Below are positions 4,736 to 43,607 of a DNA stretch of 45,135 nucleotides, in pieces. The position numbers and the translations under genes are program-made. The notes beneath the pieces were generated by a model that saw nothing but the letters and a program-made list of their open reading frames with translations, made no database searches and was not told the origin of the DNA. Within the stretch, counting starts at the first letter, position 1, and each line of letters begins with the position of its first letter. The DNA is from Verrucomicrobiota bacterium. Lineage in GTDB: Bacteria > Verrucomicrobiota > Kiritimatiellia > JAHIZV01. The stretch spans positions 1-45,135 of the forward strand of contig JAHIZV010000082.1 of the NCBI GenBank assembly GCA_018814445.1. Direction: 5' to 3'.

Positions 4736-5857
4736 GTGTCTACGTTGCGAGCGGCTCAGTGGTTCATAGGCTTGGCTTTTTTCGCGGCGCTTCTCGCTGT
4801 TTCTCCTGCCGAAACGGTAACGGTTAGTCGGCGTGTCGCTGCCTACTCTCCCGACAATCCCCGCAAGATGAAAGGCTACTTTCCAAGCGGGGCTGATCTT
4901 GAGGTATTGGGCGACGCGAAGGCCGGAATGGTCAAAGTCCGTTTTGTTTCCCCCAGCGGCAAAGAGGTCATCGCCGCGTGCCGCCGTGTGGATCTTGGCC
5001 TGCCGCCTGCGGCCGCGGTCGCTGCTTCCCTGGATCGCGATTCCCCGGACATCTCCCCGAAAAGCGGCTCTGACGTGTGGAATGAGGTTTCCGCTGATCG
5101 GATGGACACGAAGGAGCTCAGTGATCGAGGCAAAGAAGCGATGAGTATGCCGGGGCTGAAATGGCGGCATGCTCAGACAGACCATTTCGTTGTTCACTAC
5201 GAGCACGGAATCTTTGCGCGGAAGGTCGCACGTATGGCCGAGTTCTACTACGATTTCATTTCGCAGGATCTCAAGTGCAAGAAGGATCTTCTGGCCGGCA
5301 GATCGCATATTTATATATTCCGCACTGAAGAGAAGTGGAAGGAGTTCCTGGCAAAGGGCGGGAACGCGAATGACTGGGCCTTTTCGTATGTGCTGGGTCC
5401 GGCCATGTTCCTTCAGCAGGCGGACGGCACGAGTTCAAGCGCCGACGTGCTCGCGCACGAGATGACCCATCTCGTTCTCAACCGCTTCTTCCGGACCAGG
5501 ATCCCGACATGGTTGAACGAAGGCATGGCCGAATGGTACGGAGAATTTGCCTATTCGGCATTCAAGGGCATCAAGAAGAGCCAGCGCGCTCAGTTCAAGC
5601 GGCTTGTCTATCGCTTCCCGGTTGACGATCTTCTTTCCGCCGAGACCTATCCGCAGGACACCGAATCCGTGCACGCCTTCTATCAGACCTCCAAATTCCT
5701 TGTCGCCTATCTGAGGCTCGAATGGCCCGAAGAGAACTTCATCGACCTGATAAACGAAGTCATGGCCGGCACCGAGTTCGACGCAGCCCTCGAACAGAAA
5801 TACGCCATTGCCTCAAGAGACGATCTCGCCAAAGGTTTCAAGAAGTTCATTGAGTAG
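4736..5857 (+). CDS. Secreted gluzincin metallopeptidase (peptidase MA-like)
   Basis: Predicted 373 aa with a GTG start, set by AGGAGG (4725-4730) 5 nt upstream. Residues 1-25 are a signal peptide ending at SPA-E. Residues about 27-90 look like an SH3-type domain (beta-rich, with VEVLGD- and VKVRFV-like strands). The peptidase domain runs from about 143 to the end. It has the zinc motif HEMTH (241-245) and a third-ligand glutamate in WLNEGMAEW (E262 or E266), the arrangement of peptidase_MA/gluzincin families. The protein probably acts in the periplasm or outside the cell. Substrate unknown. It is 23 bp downstream of the pseudopilin gene, so the two are probably cotranscribed. Confidence 0.8.
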   Translation: MSTLRAAQWFIGLAFFAALLAVSPAETVTVSRRVAAYSPDNPRKMKGYFPSGADLEVLGDAKAGMVKVRFVSPSGKEVIAACRRVDLGLPPAAAVAASLDRDSPDISPKSGSDVWNEVSADRMDTKELSDRGKEAMSMPGLKWRHAQTDHFVVHYEHGIFARKVARMAEFYYDFISQDLKCKKDLLAGRSHIYIFRTEEKWKEFLAKGGNANDWAFSYVLGPAMFLQQADGTSSSADVLAHEMTHLVLNRFFRTRIPTWLNEGMAEWYGEFAYSAFKGIKKSQRAQFKRLVYRFPVDDLLSAETYPQDTESVHAFYQTSKFLVAYLRLEWPEENFIDLINEVMAGTEFDAALEQKYAIASRDDLAKGFKKFIE

Positions 5858-5912
5858 GGTGGATGCCGGAAGACAGAAGACAGAAGACAGAGGTCAGAGG
5901 TCGGAAGTTCAA
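5858..5912. repeat. 7-bp-period repeat array (AGACAGA family)
   Basis: Immediately after the peptidase stop comes ggtggatgccgg and then six heptads: agacaga x3 (5871-5891), ggtcaga, ggtcgga and agttcaa. The same words recur at 6405-6445 and, on the other strand, at 43520-43568. No protein is encoded. The rest of the gap to 6007 holds only the promoter noted below. Confidence 0.75.
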
Positions 5913-6301: not shown

Positions 6302-6476
6302 AGACTGGAAATTCCGGGTCGAGGATATTCTCGACGCCATCGAACGAGTCGAGGAATACACTCGGGACATGTCCGAAGAAGAGTTCTGTGCGGACAGTAA
6401 GACTGTGGATGCCGGTTGTTGGATGTCAGAAGGCAGAAGACAGAGGCCCGTTGACTGGCCGACTGATCACTTATAG
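6291..6476 (+). pseudogene. hepT: Truncated HepT-like toxin (DUF86)
   Basis: The first about 39 residues match the HepT N-terminus: MSPRDWKF, then DILDAIERVEEYT, EEFCADSKTVDA. Full HepT proteins are about 110-140 aa, with an R-x4-6-H catalytic motif further on. Here homology stops at DSKTVDA (about 6410) and the frame runs into repeat DNA, giving GCWMSEGRRQRP and a stop at 6476. The catalytic arginine-histidine motif is therefore absent. The junction word gtggatgccgg occurs also at the repeat array at 5859-5870, suggesting repeat-mediated deletion or insertion. Confidence 0.8.
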
Positions 6477-16791: not shown

Positions 16792-19302
16792 ATGGATCGT
16801 AACGCGTTTTGGAAATGGTTGATCCTCATTGTCGCCACAGTGTGGTCAATCGTGCTGATCTATCCCCCTCTTGATCAGAAGGATGCTGCCGGCCACATAA
16901 CCCGGCCGGGCAAACTCAAGTTCGGTCTGGACCTCCAGGGAGGCGCGAGTTTCACTCTTCAGGTCGACACGTCCGAACTCACGGATGACGCGAAGAAGGA
17001 CGCACAGGCACGCGCCTTGGAGGTCCTTCGCAACCGCGTTGACGCAATGGGTATTTCGGAGCCGATTATCTATCCCGAACCCGACGGCGAACGTATCGTT
17101 GTTCAGATTCCCGGCCTCAAAGCGGAAGACCGCGCCGCGGCAATCAAGCTGATTCAAAGCGCGGCGTTTCTGGAATTCCGCATGGTTCATCCTGAAAACG
17201 ACAAACTTGTGGATGAACTGTTCGCGAGCGGACAGGCTCCGCTCGGTTACAGAGTCGTGGGGGTAGATGAACAGGCGCCCAATGGCAGTTGGATCAAGAA
17301 CTACTACTACAAGCGAGACAAGTCGCTCGATCCTGAAGGGGCTACGGAGGACACCATCAGGGCGCGCCTTCGCTCTTTCAACGCTCCGCCGGGTCATGAA
17401 CTTCTTCTGGAGAAGAGCGAAAAACAGAATCAGGAATTGTTCAAACCTTACTACGTCAGCCGTCGGCGTGAGCTGACGGGTGAAGGCCTTAAGACGGCCG
17501 GGGTGGATTACCGGCAGTTTGGACAGCCCGTTGTGAACCTGAAGTTCGACTCAAAGGCTTCGCGCAAGTTCGCCAATGTCACTTCCGATTACGCGCCCGG
17601 GGGAGCCAAGAATCCCAGCCCCGACGGCCGGCGCTATATGGCCATCGTCCTGGACGGAACGCTCTACTCCGCGCCGTTCATTCGGACAGCAATCTTCGGC
17701 GGCGAAGCGATCATTGAAGGCAGTTTCACTCTCAAAGAGGCGCAGGATCTGGCCATCGTGTTACGTGCGGGATCATTGCCTGCGCCTGTAGAGGTCATAG
17801 AGCAGCGCGGCGTGGATCCAACCCTCGGGCATGATTCGATATCAAGCGGCAAACGCGCCGCCGTCTATGGGGGTATCGCCGTTTTGGCCTTCATGATGAT
17901 TTACTACCTGCTCGCCGGTGTTGTGGCTAATCTTGCCCTGCTGCTGGACGCCTTGCTCCTTCCGCTGGGTATGATGATCGCGGCTGGTTTCCTTAGCCTG
18001 CTGACCGGGGGCGGTGGTCCGGGGGGGGCGCAGGTAGGCCTGCCGACTCTTACGTTGCCGGGCATCGCGGGTCTCGTGCTTACCATTGGTATGGCGGTTG
18101 ACGCGAACGTGCTGATCTTCGAGCGCATCCGTGAGGAGCAGAGGGCAGGCAAGAAGCTGGCCAGTGCGATTGACGCGGGTTACGAGAAGGTATTCAGCAC
18201 GATCTTCGACGCGAACATCACGACTTTGCTCACGGCCATCATTCTCTTCTGGAAGGGCTCGGGGCCCATTCGCGGATTTGCCGTCACTTTGAGCGCGGGT
18301 ATTCTGGTCAGCATGATCATGGCGCTGGTCGTAACGCGTCTCTTCTTCAACACGATCGCCGCGAAGACGAATCTGACCAAGATCAGGATGCTCAACTTCC
18401 TTAGAGATACGAAGATCGATTTCGTAGGCAAGCGCGTGATAGCAGCGACTCTCTCGATCTCCATCATCATCGGTTCCTGGGTGCTCTTCATACAGCGCGG
18501 TCAGGACAACTTCGGTGTCGATTTCACGGGTGGTGCAGCGATTACATTTCAGTTTGATCAGAAAGAGGCTGTGGACAGCATTAGGTCGACCTTGAGTGAC
18601 GTGGGAATCGCCGAATCGTTCATTCAGTACCAGAAGGAAATGGCGCCGGATGCTGATGGACACACCAAGGAATACCTCGAGATCAAGGTGGGATTTGACG
18701 AGGGAGATAAGGCACGCGATGCGATGTTGACGAAGTATGCGGATGCCGGGTTCCGCGTCGTGAAGGAGGACAGCGTTGGTCCGCAAGTCGGCAAGGAACT
18801 GAAGAAACAGGGCGTTACCGCGATTGTAGCGGCCCTAATCGGTATTGTTCTCTACATCACCATCCGTTTTGAATTCGCTTTCGCGATCGGTGCGATTGTC
18901 GCGCTTGCACATGACGTGCTCGTGACGGTAGGTCTGTTTACGCTCTTCGGACGGCAATTGAGTCTTCCGATCGTAGCGGCCCTGCTGACGATCGTGGGTT
19001 ATTCGGTCAACGATACGATTGTCGTGTTCGACCGTATTCGTGAAGATCTGAAGCTGATGAAGGGCAGGAGCTACAAGGACATCGCGAACCTGAGCATCAA
19101 CCAGACACTCAGCAGAACCCTGCTGACTTCCATCACGACGCTCTTGAGTGTGGTTATGCTGCTGATCTTTGGCGGTGGCGCAATCAATGATTTCGCGCTT
19201 GCGCTGTTCATCGGTATCGTCGTCGGCACCTATTCGTCCATCTTCGTTGCGACGCCCATCGTACTGCTCTGGCACCGGGAGAAGAAGGAAGCGGCGAAGT
19301 AA
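16792..19302 (+). CDS. secDF: Fused protein-export membrane protein SecDF
   Basis: Predicted 836 aa. SecD and SecF are joined in one chain that uses the proton gradient to pull exported proteins across the membrane. SecD part: TM1 followed by LKFGLDLQGGASFTLQVD, the periplasmic P1 domain, then GMAVDANVLIFERIREE. SecF part begins near residue 530 (NFLRDTKIDFVGKR) with FGVDFTGGAAITF, later VGYSVNDTIVVFDRIREDL. The inter-TM glycine stretch LTGGGGPGGAQVGLP (about 405-420) is unusual padding. ATG 16792 is preferred over GTG 16786 because GGAG (16779-16782) is 9 nt away. It overlaps recJ by one base (TAATG). Confidence 0.93.
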   Translation: MDRNAFWKWLILIVATVWSIVLIYPPLDQKDAAGHITRPGKLKFGLDLQGGASFTLQVDTSELTDDAKKDAQARALEVLRNRVDAMGISEPIIYPEPDGERIVVQIPGLKAEDRAAAIKLIQSAAFLEFRMVHPENDKLVDELFASGQAPLGYRVVGVDEQAPNGSWIKNYYYKRDKSLDPEGATEDTIRARLRSFNAPPGHELLLEKSEKQNQELFKPYYVSRRRELTGEGLKTAGVDYRQFGQPVVNLKFDSKASRKFANVTSDYAPGGAKNPSPDGRRYMAIVLDGTLYSAPFIRTAIFGGEAIIEGSFTLKEAQDLAIVLRAGSLPAPVEVIEQRGVDPTLGHDSISSGKRAAVYGGIAVLAFMMIYYLLAGVVANLALLLDALLLPLGMMIAAGFLSLLTGGGGPGGAQVGLPTLTLPGIAGLVLTIGMAVDANVLIFERIREEQRAGKKLASAIDAGYEKVFSTIFDANITTLLTAIILFWKGSGPIRGFAVTLSAGILVSMIMALVVTRLFFNTIAAKTNLTKIRMLNFLRDTKIDFVGKRVIAATLSISIIIGSWVLFIQRGQDNFGVDFTGGAAITFQFDQKEAVDSIRSTLSDVGIAESFIQYQKEMAPDADGHTKEYLEIKVGFDEGDKARDAMLTKYADAGFRVVKEDSVGPQVGKELKKQGVTAIVAALIGIVLYITIRFEFAFAIGAIVALAHDVLVTVGLFTLFGRQLSLPIVAALLTIVGYSVNDTIVVFDRIREDLKLMKGRSYKDIANLSINQTLSRTLLTSITTLLSVVMLLIFGGGAINDFALALFIGIVVGTYSSIFVATPIVLLWHREKKEAAK

Positions 19303-27323: not shown

Positions 27324-27358
27324 TATCTGGTATCGGATATCCGGTATCTGGTATCTGA
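27324..27358. repeat. 7-bp-period repeat (TATCTGG family) at the bioB start
   Basis: Five heptads, tatctgg, tatcgga, tatccgg, tatctgg and tatctga, run directly into the ATG at 27358. The remainder of the 136-bp bioF-bioB gap contains looser ggatgcc / agatgccgg words but no clear promoter. Confidence 0.75.
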
Positions 27359-28344: not shown

Positions 28345-28347
28345 GGA

Positions 28348-28439
28348 AACATCGAACATCGAACAACAAACATCGAACTTCGAATCGAAGAGCACCTGCA
28401 TTCGATGTTCAGCGTTCGATGTTCGGAGTTCGATGTTCC
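28348..28439. repeat. AACATCG foldback element, copy 1
   Basis: Left arm heptads: aacatcg, aacatcg, aacaaca, aacatcg, aacttcg, aatcgaa (28348-28389). After an 11-nt loop the right arm (28401-28439) is built of the complementary words cgatgtt, cagcgtt, cgatgtt, cggagtt, cgatgtt. It fills the space between the bioB stop and the next ribosome-binding site. Confidence 0.8.
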
Positions 28440-28448
28440 TAAGAGGCT

Positions 28449-28850: not shown

Positions 28851-28852
28851 GA

Positions 28853-28944
28853 AACATCGAACTCTGAACAACCAACATCGAACGTCGAAGTCCGGAACTC
28901 TTCCATTCGATGTTCTGAGTTCGTTGTTTGATGTTCGATGTTCC
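28853..28944. repeat. AACATCG foldback element, copy 2
   Basis: Left heptads aacatcg, aactctg, aacaacc, aacatcg, aacgtcg, aagtccg (28853-28894) face a complementary right arm (28906-28944) ending gatgttcgatgttcc. It begins 3 nt after the hypothetical gene stop and ends beside the convergent nadA stop, so it may act as a two-way terminator. Confidence 0.8.
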
Positions 28945-28955
28945 GCCGCAGGCGG

Positions 28956-29996: not shown

Positions 29997-30062
29997 GGAA
30001 CGTCAGCTTAGGTTGAGATCACGGAGGTTTCAACTCACAACTGCAGGAAGCAACCGGGACCA

Positions 30063-30097
30063 AGGTCCAATGTCCAGGCTCGGTAGTCCATGGTCCT
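30063..30097. repeat. 7-bp-period repeat (AGGTCCA/TAGTCCA family)
   Basis: Five heptads: aggtcca, atgtcca, ggctcgg, tagtcca, tggtcct. Outer ggacca (30057-30062) and tggtcc (30091-30096) are complementary, so the array can fold back. It sits between the divergent nadA and the glycosidase-like gene. Confidence 0.6.
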
Positions 30098-32392: not shown

Positions 32393-32464
32393 ATGGTTGA
32401 TGGGGATGGTTAATGGGGAATGGTTGACCGCCCGTCACCGCACATGGTTGATGGCTGAGGACTG
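32393..32464. repeat. 7-bp-period repeat (ATGGTTG family) before lysS
   Basis: Words atggttg, atgggg, atggtta, atgggga, atggttg (32393-32426), then atggttg and atggctg, aggactg (32444-32464), ending two bases before the lysS ATG. The same family recurs, inverted, at 37027-37054. Confidence 0.75.
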
Positions 32465-32466
32465 AT

Positions 32467-33912
32467 ATGACAGAACAACAGGAACAGAATGAATACCGGG
32501 CTCAGAGGCTTGAGAATCTTGAGAAGCTGAAGGAGGCGGGTTACTCGCCTTTTGGTGCCGCCTTCGAGCGCACGGGTGACCTTGGTGCGATCCGTGCGGA
32601 GTTTGAAGAGGGGAAGACGGTCCGAATCGCCGGACGCCTTGTCGCGATCCGCGACATGGGGAAAAGCATCTTCGCGCACCTGCAGGACAGTTCAGGAAGA
32701 TTCCAGGTATATGCCCAGAAGAACGCTCTCGGAGATGAGGCGTTTGCCGCGTTCAAGCTGCTCGACCTCGGCGACACGATTGGCGTAGAAGGTGAGTTGT
32801 TTACCACCCGGACGGAAGAACCAACCGCCAAGGCGGCGAGCTGGACTCTACTGTCAAAGGCCCTGCTTCCTCTCCCCGAGAAGTGGCACGGGCTGCAGGA
32901 CGTGGACACGCGCTATCGCCAGCGCTACCTTGATCTCATTGCCAATCCGGAAGTGACCGGGCTTTTCCGCAAACGCACGGAGGCTGTCCGTGAGATTCGC
33001 GGGTATCTTGCCGATCGTGGATTTTACGAAGTCGAGACGCCGATGATTCAAGCGATGGCGGGCGGTGCGGCAGCCAATCCGTTCAAGACACACTACGATG
33101 CGCTCAGTAGCGACATGTTTCTGCGCATCGCGCCGGAGCTTTACCTCAAGCGACTGCTGGTCGGCGGTTTTGATAAGGTCTTCGAGCTGAACCGCAACTT
33201 CCGCAACGAAGGACTGAGCCGTTCACACAATCCTGAATTTACGATGCTGGAAATCTACCAGGCTTTCACCGACGTGCGCGGCATGATGGAACTCGTTCAA
33301 GGTCTGACTACGCACGTGTCCGAGAAGATCTTCGGCACATTGAAAGTCGGATCTGAGGAAATGCCGATAGATTTGATGCCGCCGTGGCGTGAGGTGACGT
33401 ACCATGATCTGATTGTTGAGGTGGCGGGAGACGACTGGTTCTCGCTGGATCTTGCGCTCGCGCAGGAGAGGGCTTCTTCTCTAGGTGTGGATTTCGATCC
33501 TGCATGGGACATGGTTCTGTTGACGCAGGAGATCTTTGAAAAGAAGATCGAGAAAACGCTGGTGAATCCGACTTTTGTAACGCGTCTGCCGGTCGCGTTG
33601 GTCCCGCTTGCCAAGGCGTGCATTGACGATCCATCGGTTGTCGATGTCTTCGAACTCATCATCGGCGGCCGGGAAATAGCTCCTGCCTACAGTGAGCTGA
33701 ATGATCCGCTGGAGCAACGGAAGCGTTTCGAGGAGCAAGCCGCGGGGGATGCAGAGAAGATCGATGAGGACTTCCTCGCGGCGCTGGAGCATGGAATGCC
33801 ACCGGCCGGCGGCATGGGCATCGGGATCGACCGCCTTATGATGGTCTTTACGGGTGCAGAAGCGATTCGGGATGTGATACTGTTTCCGCAGTTGAAACCG
33901 AGGGAGAGTTGA
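32467..33912 (+). CDS. lysS: Lysyl-tRNA synthetase, class II
   Basis: Predicted 481 aa. N-terminal OB anticodon-binding domain (about 50-140: VRIAGRLVAIRDMGKSIFAHLQDSSGRFQVY). Class II motifs: motif 1 around VREIRGYLADRGFYEVETPMI, motif 2 FELNRNFRNEGLSRSHNPEFTMLEIY, motif 3 GMGIGIDRLMMVFTG. The body is close in length to E. coli LysS (505 aa). No strong Shine-Dalgarno sequence; repeat DNA fills the region before the start. It lies downstream of tRNA-Leu and may be read from that promoter or one hidden in the repeat. Confidence 0.95.
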   Translation: MTEQQEQNEYRAQRLENLEKLKEAGYSPFGAAFERTGDLGAIRAEFEEGKTVRIAGRLVAIRDMGKSIFAHLQDSSGRFQVYAQKNALGDEAFAAFKLLDLGDTIGVEGELFTTRTEEPTAKAASWTLLSKALLPLPEKWHGLQDVDTRYRQRYLDLIANPEVTGLFRKRTEAVREIRGYLADRGFYEVETPMIQAMAGGAAANPFKTHYDALSSDMFLRIAPELYLKRLLVGGFDKVFELNRNFRNEGLSRSHNPEFTMLEIYQAFTDVRGMMELVQGLTTHVSEKIFGTLKVGSEEMPIDLMPPWREVTYHDLIVEVAGDDWFSLDLALAQERASSLGVDFDPAWDMVLLTQEIFEKKIEKTLVNPTFVTRLPVALVPLAKACIDDPSVVDVFELIIGGREIAPAYSELNDPLEQRKRFEEQAAGDAEKIDEDFLAALEHGMPPAGGMGIGIDRLMMVFTGAEAIRDVILFPQLKPRES

Positions 33913-33996
33913 ACATCGAACACCGAACATCGAACGCTGAACATCGAATCCCGTTCCAACTTCGATGTTGGATGTTTAATGTTCGATGTTCGATGT
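33912..33996. repeat. AACATCG foldback element, copy 3
   Basis: The first heptad shares its first base with the last base of the lysS stop. Left: aacatcg, aacaccg, aacatcg, aacgctg, aacatcg, aatcccg (33912-33953). Right arm 33961-33996 is complementary (gatgttgg, gatgttta, cgatgtt). It ends 10 nt before the lolC/E start. Confidence 0.8.
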
Positions 33997-36851: not shown

Positions 36852-36888
36852 TGATAGAGTCTGTGTGTGCGGAGGCATGGAAGTGAGC

Positions 36889-37054
36889 GAACATCGAACA
36901 CCCCGCTTCGCTCTGCGAGCTACGCAGGGCAAGCCGAACATCGAACACCCCGCTTCGCTCTGCGAGCTACGCAGGGCAAGCCGAACATCGAGTTCGGAGG
37001 TCGTCGATGTGTTCTATATCGTCCATCAACCATCAGCCATCAACCATTTCCCAT
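36889..37054. repeat. 47-bp tandem repeat with nested hairpin, then ATGGTTG heptamers
   Basis: Two identical 47-bp units (36889-36935 and 36936-36982) and the start of a third each contain gaacatcgaacacc followed by an imperfect hairpin (gcttcgctctgc / gcagggcaagc). They therefore combine an AACATCG heptamer stub with an inserted palindrome, later duplicated. Inverted ATGGTTG heptads (caaccat, cagccat, caaccat, ttcccat) occupy 37027-37054. Nothing else was found in the 222 bp before mcsA. Confidence 0.75.
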
Positions 37055-41276: not shown

Positions 41277-43472
41277 ATGGCATTTAAGAAGATGAAGACA
41301 CCTGTAACGCTGGGCAACGCCCGCTTCACTGTTTATTCAGACGGCTGTGTGCGCATGGAGTACGCGCATTGGGAACGTTTCAGTCCCTATGCCTCCATCA
41401 TCGTCGGCAAGAAGCTTCCGAAGGCCGCTTCGGCTGAAGTGGAAATCGAGGGGCGCGAGGTGCGGATTCGTACGCCTAAGTTCGAACTTCACTACAAGGA
41501 AAACGGGGAGGAGTTCTCGGCGCAGAACCTGAACATCTCCCACGTCGATAAAGATAACAAAAAGAAAGTCTGGTCTCCCGGCAAGAAGGATGAGGGCAAT
41601 CTTGGCACGGTCACGCGCTCGCTCGACTTCTGGAAATGGTGCGGCGGCCCGGAGAAACATCCGGTCGAGGGTATTCTCAGCACGGACGGCGGTCACTTCC
41701 TGCAGGATCATGGGCGCGTCTACTGGAACACGAAGTACGATTGGCCGCAGTCTATGCAGGACCAGGTGGCATTTGACGGTTACTTCTTCGCGTACGGGCA
41801 AGACTTCAAGGGAGCTCTCAAGGATTTCATCACGGTCTTTGGACGCATTCCGATGGTTCCGCGCTGGACGTTCGGCTTCTGGTACTCGCGGTGGTACGAC
41901 TACACGGATAAAGAGTTCGTCGCGCTCGCGAAGCGATATGATAAGGAGAAGATCCCGATCGATGTAATGATTATCGATACTGACTGGCGCGACAACTGGG
42001 GCGGGTACGACTGGAGCAAGCGTACATTCCCGAATCCGGAAAAGGCGCTGAAGAACCTCCATGACCTCGGCCTGCAGACATCTCTGAACGATCACCCGGG
42101 TTACGACGCATACGAGTCGCTGCCCGGTAATGACAGCCATATCCCGGCGATCGCAAAGAAACTCGGTCCGCTGCCGCACGAGGGCAGGTGGGCGTGTGAC
42201 TGGTCGAATAAGAAGGCTCTGAAGGTGTGGTTTGACGAGTTACTTGGCCCGTTCTTTGACCAGGGCATGGACTTCTGGTGGATTGACGGCTGGATCAAAC
42301 GCTCGTTCCGCGGCGAAGACAGCCAGCTCTGGGCTAACTGGCACTACTTCGATGAATGTGAGAAACGCACCGGCAAACGCGGGATGATCCTGTCGCGCTG
42401 GGGCGGGGTGGGATCACATCGCTTCCCCGTGCAGTTCTCCGGCGACACGGCCTCAGAGTGGGACACGCTGCGTGAGCAGATTCAGTTCACCGCAAACTCG
42501 GGCAACCTTGGCGCGATCTACTGGTCGCACGATATCGGCGGTTTTTTCGGCAAGAAGATCGATGAGGAGTTGTTCATCCGGTGGAGCCAGTTCGGCGCGA
42601 TGAGCCCGGTCTTCCGCACACACAGTGATCACGGCAGCCGTGAACCGTGGGAGTACAGCGAGAAGGCTAAGGCGCTGTTCCGCAAGCAGACGCGGATCCG
42701 CTACGCGCTCGCACCATACTTCTACACACTGGCGCGCGAAGCGCACGATACAGGAATGCCGATCATCCGTCCTCTGTATCTCGAGTACAACGACAATGAC
42801 GGCGGGGCGTTCTACCGCAAGCACCAGTACACGATCGGGAGAGAATTGCTCGTGATTCCGGCAGACGGCGCTGCGGACAAGAAGACAGGAATGTACTCCA
42901 AGCGGATCTACATTCCGAACGGAAACTGGTCAGGCCTGGAGACGGACGAGACGTACTTTGGAATGATGGACCGCAGTATCGACATACCCCTTGAGATCAT
43001 TCCGACCTACGTGCGCAAAGGCGCCATCATCCCGTGTCAGGCTGTCGGCAAACGGATCGGCAAGGACGTGCCCGAGGAAATGCAATTCGACTACTATCCG
43101 GATGATCTGCACCCCTCGCATTTTGAACTCTACGAGGACGATGGGGATTCAAAGGACTATGAGAAGGGCAGATGTGCCGTCACGCATGTTGACGGTTCGC
43201 GCAGCGGAGACACGATCATGTTCAAAATCGCCGCGCCGAAGGGCTCATACAAGAATATGCCGAAGAAGCGTTCCTACGTCGTCAGAATGGCAATAGACCA
43301 CGACGAGAAAGTGGGGTCCGCGGAGGCTGAGGTCGGCAAGGGCGAATGGCAGAAGATCACATCCAAAACGACCGGCACTTGCCTGGCAGGAACAGTGAAG
43401 TCAAAACGCAAGTTCTGCGAAGTGTCTGTGGATAGTCCGAACCAGCCGGTTCAGATTCGGGTTAAGCTCTAA
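41277..43472 (+). CDS. Glycoside hydrolase family 31 alpha-glucosidase-like enzyme
   Basis: Predicted 731 aa, no signal peptide, so probably cytoplasmic. Exceptionally strong Shine-Dalgarno GGAGGTGAT, with 7 nt between GGAGG and the ATG. N-terminal beta-sandwich (about 1-190), then a TIM barrel. Nucleophile Asp337 in DFWWIDGW, acid/base Asp390 in QFSGDTASEWD, plus IYWSHDIGGFFG and PVFRTHSDHGSREPWEYSE. C-terminal beta domains contain PTYVRKGAIIP and FELYEDDGDSKDYE. GH31 includes alpha-glucosidases, alpha-xylosidases and sulfoquinovosidases; starch context upstream and a shared operator suggest alpha-glucosidase, but substrate is not proven. Confidence 0.88.
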   Translation: MAFKKMKTPVTLGNARFTVYSDGCVRMEYAHWERFSPYASIIVGKKLPKAASAEVEIEGREVRIRTPKFELHYKENGEEFSAQNLNISHVDKDNKKKVWSPGKKDEGNLGTVTRSLDFWKWCGGPEKHPVEGILSTDGGHFLQDHGRVYWNTKYDWPQSMQDQVAFDGYFFAYGQDFKGALKDFITVFGRIPMVPRWTFGFWYSRWYDYTDKEFVALAKRYDKEKIPIDVMIIDTDWRDNWGGYDWSKRTFPNPEKALKNLHDLGLQTSLNDHPGYDAYESLPGNDSHIPAIAKKLGPLPHEGRWACDWSNKKALKVWFDELLGPFFDQGMDFWWIDGWIKRSFRGEDSQLWANWHYFDECEKRTGKRGMILSRWGGVGSHRFPVQFSGDTASEWDTLREQIQFTANSGNLGAIYWSHDIGGFFGKKIDEELFIRWSQFGAMSPVFRTHSDHGSREPWEYSEKAKALFRKQTRIRYALAPYFYTLAREAHDTGMPIIRPLYLEYNDNDGGAFYRKHQYTIGRELLVIPADGAADKKTGMYSKRIYIPNGNWSGLETDETYFGMMDRSIDIPLEIIPTYVRKGAIIPCQAVGKRIGKDVPEEMQFDYYPDDLHPSHFELYEDDGDSKDYEKGRCAVTHVDGSRSGDTIMFKIAAPKGSYKNMPKKRSYVVRMAIDHDEKVGSAEAEVGKGEWQKITSKTTGTCLAGTVKSKRKFCEVSVDSPNQPVQIRVKL

Positions 43473-43475
43473 AGC

Positions 43476-43603
43476 GAAGAGCCCGGAGCAAGGAGCGCGG
43501 AGGATGGATCGTCACACTCTATCCTCTGTCTCCTGACTTCTGACCTCTGTCTTCTAACATCTGATGTCTGGCTTCCTGCCGCCTTTATCCTGTATCCTTC
43601 TCT
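43476..43603. repeat. Long 7-bp-period array between GH31 and lpxL (two families)
   Basis: Immediately after the GH31 stop come purine-rich heptads gaagagc, ccggagc, aaggagc, gcggagg (43476-43503). From 43520 twelve consecutive pyrimidine-rich heptads follow, starting tatcctc, tgtctcc, tgacttc, tgacctc, tgtcttc, taacatc, tgatgtc, tggcttc and ending cttctct at 43603, 4 bp before the next ATG. This is the clearest example of the 7-bp phase in the window. Confidence 0.85.
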
Positions 43604-43607
43604 GGTC

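Follow-up and report, generated by a model that had tools for sequence, protein, structure and literature searches.

The gene gap at 43473-43607 of the contig whose first lines stand above (45,135 nucleotides in full, hereafter the window) raises the question of how a gene junction comes to be filled with short repeats of one strict period, and why junctions elsewhere carry the same period in unrelated sequences. Base identity at lag 7 in this gap was 0.57, compared with 0.18-0.28 at lags 5, 6, 8 and 9, and the top lag-7 segment scored 23, a value reached in none of 2000 shuffles, while other lags scored 5 or less. The gap holds two arms, a purine-rich GAAGAGC-like one followed by a pyrimidine-rich TCTGACT-like one. 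The 5' arm (43479..43510, + strand, GAAGAGC / CGGAGCA-type heptads) begins a few bases past the stop codon of a GH31 glycosidase gene (41277-43472). The 3' arm (43517..43598, + strand, 11-12 heptads of the TCTGACT / CTTCTGA family), which carries the segment of score 23 (0/2000 shuffles), stops just 5' of the ATG (43608) of a lipid A acyltransferase gene. The two arms complement each other in part, and the RNA fold is weak relative to shuffles (z=-1.5). GAAGAGC, the word of the 5' arm, is also found together with GAGAGCC in an array of 33 units in phase at positions 2872-3103 of contig L267, which belongs to a genome (G223) of another family of the class.

An earlier note on this DNA had listed several unrelated families of heptads across the window. 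Clear 7-bp arrays were recovered at 5861-5908, 27324-27357, 28348-28438, 28867-28943, 33913-33983, 37018-37047 and 43473-43607. The GAAGACA/AGAGGTC array (5861..5908, +, score 27) starts 3 nt past the stop codon at 5857, and a TCAGAAG-type array that had escaped the list was found at 6407..6444 (+, score 13). The TATCTGG array (27324..27357, +, score 17) extends to the initiating ATG of a radical SAM/BATS gene, and the gap that holds it folds with z=-3.0. AACATCG heptads are arranged as inverted, hairpin-forming pairs to which no strand was assigned. One of these, (GAACATC)n ... (GATGTTC)n at 28348..28438, occupies an entire gene gap (fold z=-4.3 for 28345-28448), and a second at 28853..28943, within which 28867-28943 is the clear lag-7 array, occupies the entire next gap (z=-6.2 for 28851-28955). 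A further pair at 33911..33996, with its clear lag-7 array at 33913-33983, starts inside a stop codon (TTGA/ACATCG) and folds with z=-3.3 (33913-33985). The CCATCAA array (ATGGTTG inverted; 37018..37047, +, score 15) precedes a start codon. Two families of the list survived in part. The AGGTCCA repeat placed at 30063-30097 shrank to a weak run at 30057..30076 (+, score 9, P about 0.0025), and the ATGGTTG repeat placed at 32393-32464 lies in a mixed region (32393-32465, for which TRF gave period 13 with 2.6 copies), where heptads are confined to a short run at 32444..32465 (+) and period 13 fits better at 32393-32427.

Repeats with longer units were seen as well. A 47-bp unit present in 2.2 copies (36888..36991, +; TRF, 100% identical) ends in GAACATCGAAC heptads and joins AACATCG heptads to the strong palindrome CGCTCTGCGAGCTACGCAGGGC; the surrounding DNA (36885-37024) folds with z=-5.2, and a relative of the unit (95% over 38 bp) lies in a gap of contig L193 starting at 18042. 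At the contig end, an 84-bp direct repeat (1-154, 1.8 copies, 97%) is probably a dispersed repeat that interrupted the assembly. Another dispersed element, about 140 bp long, with inverted ends and free of heptads, lies in the window gap from 22549 and in gaps of contigs L176 (from 10316) and L178 (from 12016); its copies are 94-99% identical, and it may represent a MITE family.

The window, whose ClpC-like protein shares 74% identity with one from a Verrucomicrobia genome, is one contig of a 4.06-Mb, Verrucomicrobiota-like metagenome-assembled genome in 250 contigs. Of this genome, 1.41 Mb were analysed by measuring identity per lag, with genes predicted by a simple hexamer scorer whose stops are reliable and whose starts are approximate. 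Intergenic identity was 0.279 at lag 7, 0.273 at lag 14 and 0.271 at lag 21 over a background of 0.254 +/- 0.003 (z = 7.6, 5.8 and 4.9), while in the coding DNA of these 1.41 Mb the codon period alone was observed and a lag-7 excess was not found. The earlier note had named such peaks at 7, 14 and 21, in intergenic but not in coding DNA, as the outcome that would support it, and the same peaks were obtained from 40 contigs picked without regard to repeats. Lag-7 arrays with a score of at least 12 were present in 84 of 700 gene gaps, about one in eight, whereas lags 3-6 and 8-13 gave arrays in 0-11 of the 700, and mononucleotide shuffles of the gaps gave 0 arrays for lags 5-9. At lag 7 the intergenic DNA gave 72 arrays, compared with 0-7 for lags 5, 8, 10, 11 and 13, and these 72 lie in 0.12 Mb of intergenic DNA, compared with 21 in 1.26 Mb of coding DNA. 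The few arrays within predicted coding DNA are mostly located at CDS ends. Altogether, arrays make up about 4% of the intergenic DNA. A weak genome-wide 7-bp periodicity outside the arrays was considered and rejected: the lag-7 excess is gone once the arrays are masked, so that the signal consists of discrete arrays. Six relatives of the same class, analysed with the same method as a negative control, yielded 2 arrays in 400 kb; the genome collection used for comparison included no relative from the same family.

Counted up to rotation and strand, 105 arrays represent at least 46 heptads. AACATCG is the commonest (16 of 105 arrays; letter-shuffled heptads reach at most 6) and turns up again in phages and in genomes that are only distantly related. 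The pattern (GAACATC)3 is present in 30 of 289 genomes of the phylum with up to 118 matches each, while the reversed pattern is nearly absent, and its occurrence is patchy, one genus having genomes with 39, 64 and no matches. AACATCG aside, 8 of 93 heptad families are common to other genomes, where 3.5 are expected. With most heptads private and AACATCG both over-represented and recurrent, the period is general and the sequences are mostly local, with one that either travels or is favoured. The sharp intergenic period-7 excess over so many unrelated heptads indicates one 7-nt process acting on many sequences. The proposal that a mechanism copies the period and not the sequence is therefore borne out as to the period and goes too far as to the sequence, since sequence is copied also, as the over-representation of AACATCG shows. 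Three predicted reading frames elsewhere (L155 3944-5288, L181 1170-2246 and L033 3653-4471) end in AACCATC heptads, and their protein ends appear to be set by array growth.

The position of the arrays relative to genes follows rules. They had been described as occupying whole junctions, usually from within a few bases of a stop codon to a few bases before a start. Proximity to stops was confirmed, 29 of 96 arrays starting no more than 6 nt from a stop codon where 13.6 +/- 2.7 were expected, about a twofold excess; proximity to start codons was not significant (32 versus 26.7 expected, P=0.06). Of 35 array pairs that share a gap, 11 are inverted copies and 2 direct ones, with about 4% expected for each. 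A set of 24 close inverted pairs was collected in the own genome, in planctomycetes, Fibrobacteria and further verrucomicrobia, and on IMG/VR contigs; the 5' arm has the higher purine content in 21 of them (p=0.0003). Single arrays follow the same purine polarity (rho=-0.34, p=0.008), and array-free gaps are opposite in sign; the purine-rich strand is directed away from the adjoining gene. Arrays are equally frequent in divergent (15/141), tandem (56/462) and convergent (13/97) gaps. A constant phase between the two arms was not found, the offsets taking six of the seven possible values. In the own genome arrays did not run on into the CDS upstream of the stop, and seeding from the CDS end was not observed.

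Polarity and proximity to stops were both replicated in a set of 272 arrays taken from IMG/VR loci, with rho=-0.32 (p=7e-8) for the polarity and 92 of 267 arrays near stops, compared with 44.7 expected. These loci were found via a heptad search, which makes their array density non-random; the location rules lie outside the search criteria. Several of the array-bearing loci are genuine phages that encode a terminase, a portal protein or a Mu-type transposase, and in the phage contigs arrays are found in many gene gaps. L313 (terminase and portal) and L302 (Mu-type transposition genes) carry 11-13 heptad arrays per 14 kb, AACATCG included. In several gaps of the phage contig L303, GTTATTG arms lie 3-6 nt past stops and ACTAATA/ACAAATA arms 16-20 nt ahead of starts, and its arrays are letter-identical in L291, L306, L307 and L308, making five contigs from different metagenomes.

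The relationship between units within an array bears on how arrays grow. Adjacent units are more alike than in order-shuffled arrays (0.79 versus 0.69, z=14.9, 57 of 68 arrays). In arrays without family switching the effect is only z=1.9, and array detection is itself biased toward similar neighbours, so that unit similarity is taken as support for neighbour copying and not as proof. Variant pairs at a given phase share the same base in 69% of cases, which points to copying after mutation. Duplications of 21-bp blocks, that is of three heptads, were observed in G223 (unit orders IJJIJJIJJ and EECEECEEC), and an array at 6710 of L169 has repeated AACATCG-AACATTG-AACATCG blocks. A switch from one family to another within a continuous array was seen at L186 2974, L044 14613, L141 7588, L193 10757, L295 1427 and L291 9263. 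A grammar of four conserved plus three variable positions within heptads was also considered; the contiguity of variable phases was weak (z=1.7) and it is not claimed.

Taken together, we give a probability of about 0.5 to the reading that the arrays are degenerate heptamer satellites of gene gaps, grown by local 7-nt copying, some of which form intercistronic hairpins. Arrays would grow by local copying in steps of 7 nt, through slippage or tandem duplication in replication or repair. Point mutations would be carried forward, letting an array drift between heptads, and the enclosed genes would halt growth at the stop codon and at the ribosome site. Some particularly successful heptads, with AACATCG in the lead, may have spread among gaps and genomes, plausibly via phages. 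Where the same family reaches both ends of a gap, the transcript could fold as an intercistronic hairpin, any function of which would be a secondary use and not the origin of the array. Against local copying it counts that plain slippage predicts neither the preference for a purine-rich 5' arm nor the inverted pairing, and that the recurrence of AACATCG in unrelated genomes requires an added dispersal or sequence preference. The step of 7, rather than 6 or 8, is left unexplained by the present data.

Hairpins might instead be what the arrays exist for. The arrays would then be selected regulatory elements, either binding sites or intercistronic RNA hairpins through which neighbouring genes are controlled at the level of termination, mRNA decay or translation. 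Stop-codon adjacency and polarity, seen in two independent data sets, would fit, as would the spacing of the L303 arms from stops and starts. Several gaps fold far better than shuffles, such as 28851-28955, and related heptads have been proposed as regulator sites (MTYCTGA in Geobacter, PMC2700814) and as translational sites (TAACTGA, PMC4679880). However, fold z below -2 was reached in only 33% of array-bearing gaps, compared with 19% of the others, the equal frequency of arrays in all gap orientations does not suit terminators, and one binding protein is ill-suited to dozens of heptads per genome. In an Rfam search of the window the arrays matched no family, a single tRNA alone being above threshold. 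With a third of the gaps folding and no bias in orientation, hairpins are a plausible use of some arrays and unlikely to be the reason for all, and we regard selected regulation as a rather doubtful general explanation. Somewhat less likely still is an origin from REP/REPIN-like mobile palindromes, in which Y1 (REP-associated) transposases would mobilize the inverted pairs as non-autonomous elements, and single arrays would be halves of broken pairs. The constant polarity of inverted pairs, the dispersal of AACATCG over gaps and genomes and the position directly past stop codons would all fit such elements. Y1_Tnp is encoded in 30 of 30 (GAACATC)3-positive genomes versus 214 of 289 overall and 184 of 259 negatives, with 10 copies in the own genome. 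This association is suggestive but confounded, since Y1_Tnp is common and more frequent in larger genomes, and the (GAACATC)3-positive genomes are large ones. Moreover, sequence outside the arrays is shared in only 22 of 6105 masked gap pairs, the period is the sole common trait of dozens of unrelated sequences, and many arrays are single-armed and switch family midway.

Two further explanations carry little weight. The arrays could be scars of DNA-end healing, in which a gap breaks, a polymerase extends the 3' ends while re-aligning in 7-nt steps, and the ends are rejoined. Extension of both ends would run purine-rich heptads inward from both genes and leave an inverted pair, extension of one end a single array, and one process would thus give the period, the diversity of families, switching within arrays, inverted pairing and outward polarity on chromosomes and phages alike. 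The polymerase, a putative enzyme, would have to tolerate sequence change and be telomerase-like in effect, and we consider this improbable. An assembly or sequencing artefact might be suspected in a metagenome assembly of 250 contigs, but the letter-identical arrays on the five phage contigs come from different metagenomes, and arrays are degenerate, placed at gene gaps and present in many unrelated records, which makes an artefact extremely unlikely.

The arrays belong to a known class of repeats that is itself unexplained, although they are more regular than the earlier note had seen. Its contrast with the STRR heptamers of heterocystous cyanobacteria was too narrow, since reports of heptad arrays extend to Xanthomonas, Geobacter, Beggiatoaceae and Bacteroidetes, and a 7n3 excess has been published for Planctomycetes and Verrucomicrobia. 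According to the 2007 survey of Mrazek and colleagues, as cited in PMC4679880 and PMC4692102, no other unit is as common as the heptamer among longer tandem repeats, and slippage of a polymerase whose contact length is 7 nt was put forward as the cause; this is close to one mechanism that copies the period, and the idea is therefore not new. Table 2 of PMC4060949 lists a 7n3 excess of 2.0 for Planctomycetes and 0.5 for Verrucomicrobia, with 0 for 6n3 and 8n3. The dominant period in these surveys is the same as here. Their counts refer to near-perfect repeats, and the passages covered describe neither degenerate arrays nor inverted pairs, and neither a polarity of arms nor an occurrence in phages. 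The Calothrix STRR heptamers, as cited in PMC4692102, are likewise tandem and intergenic and form few defined families.

A close parallel is formed by the G-rich intergenic heptamers GGGAATC / GGGGA(C/T)T described for Xanthomonas and Nostoc in PMC4692102, which differ in length and sequence among related genomes and form 70-75 convergent inverted pairs per Xanthomonas genome, outward polarity being reported for GGGAATC as well. Both the inverted pairs (11/35) and the outward purine-rich strand (21/24; phage contigs rho=-0.32) are shared with the present arrays. Those repeats comprise one family per genome, are quadruplex-forming and are under-represented between divergent genes (PMC4692102), whereas here many families coexist, most are not G-rich, divergent gaps are not avoided and phages carry arrays too. 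The main families AACATCG, AACCATC, AAAGTTC and AAGTCAG lack the GGG of a quadruplex G-tract, although some others, such as AAACCCG (CGGGTTT), contain it. In Geobacter metallireducens, class 3 sites consist of five tandem MTYCTGA, essentially the heptad of the 43517-43598 arm, and 49 elements carry four GGGACCG repeats (PMC2700814). These are single, conserved families proposed as regulator or RNA elements, and neither multiple families nor switching within arrays is described there. TAACTGA direct repeats of marine Beggiatoaceae, Cyanobacteria and Bacteroidetes (PMC4679880) resemble the present arrays as sporadic, possibly horizontally transferred intergenic heptads in unrelated lineages. They are near-perfect repeats of one fixed sequence, mostly upstream of start codons, whereas the arrays here are degenerate, of many families and mostly beside stop codons, and TAACTGA is not among the heptad families of the own genome. 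REP, BIME and REPIN elements are also dispersed palindromes by stop codons, and Y1 transposases are present in this genome, but REP elements have neither period 7 nor family diversity, and the constant body of a REP/REPIN is not seen among 46 distinct heptads and the few gap pairs that share sequence. CRISPR arrays differ in having long direct repeats separated by unique spacers of constant length, where the 7-bp units are contiguous.

Heptamer excess, inverted pairs and polarity have thus been published for single families such as GGGAATC and TAACTGA. In the literature searched, no report was found of dozens of degenerate heptad families coexisting in one genome, of family switching inside heptad arrays, of a polarity general across families and phyla, or of dense heptad arrays in phages. 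For annotation, the arrays are a warning that gene ends in array-bearing genomes run into repeats. The heptamer excess has been noted since at least 2007, and no cause of it is generally accepted. When dozens of unrelated heptads share one genome, and small phages carry arrays in many gene gaps, the step length of 7 is separated from the sequence, and the shared polarity and stop-codon placement limit the possible mechanisms in ways that are testable in strains and phages.
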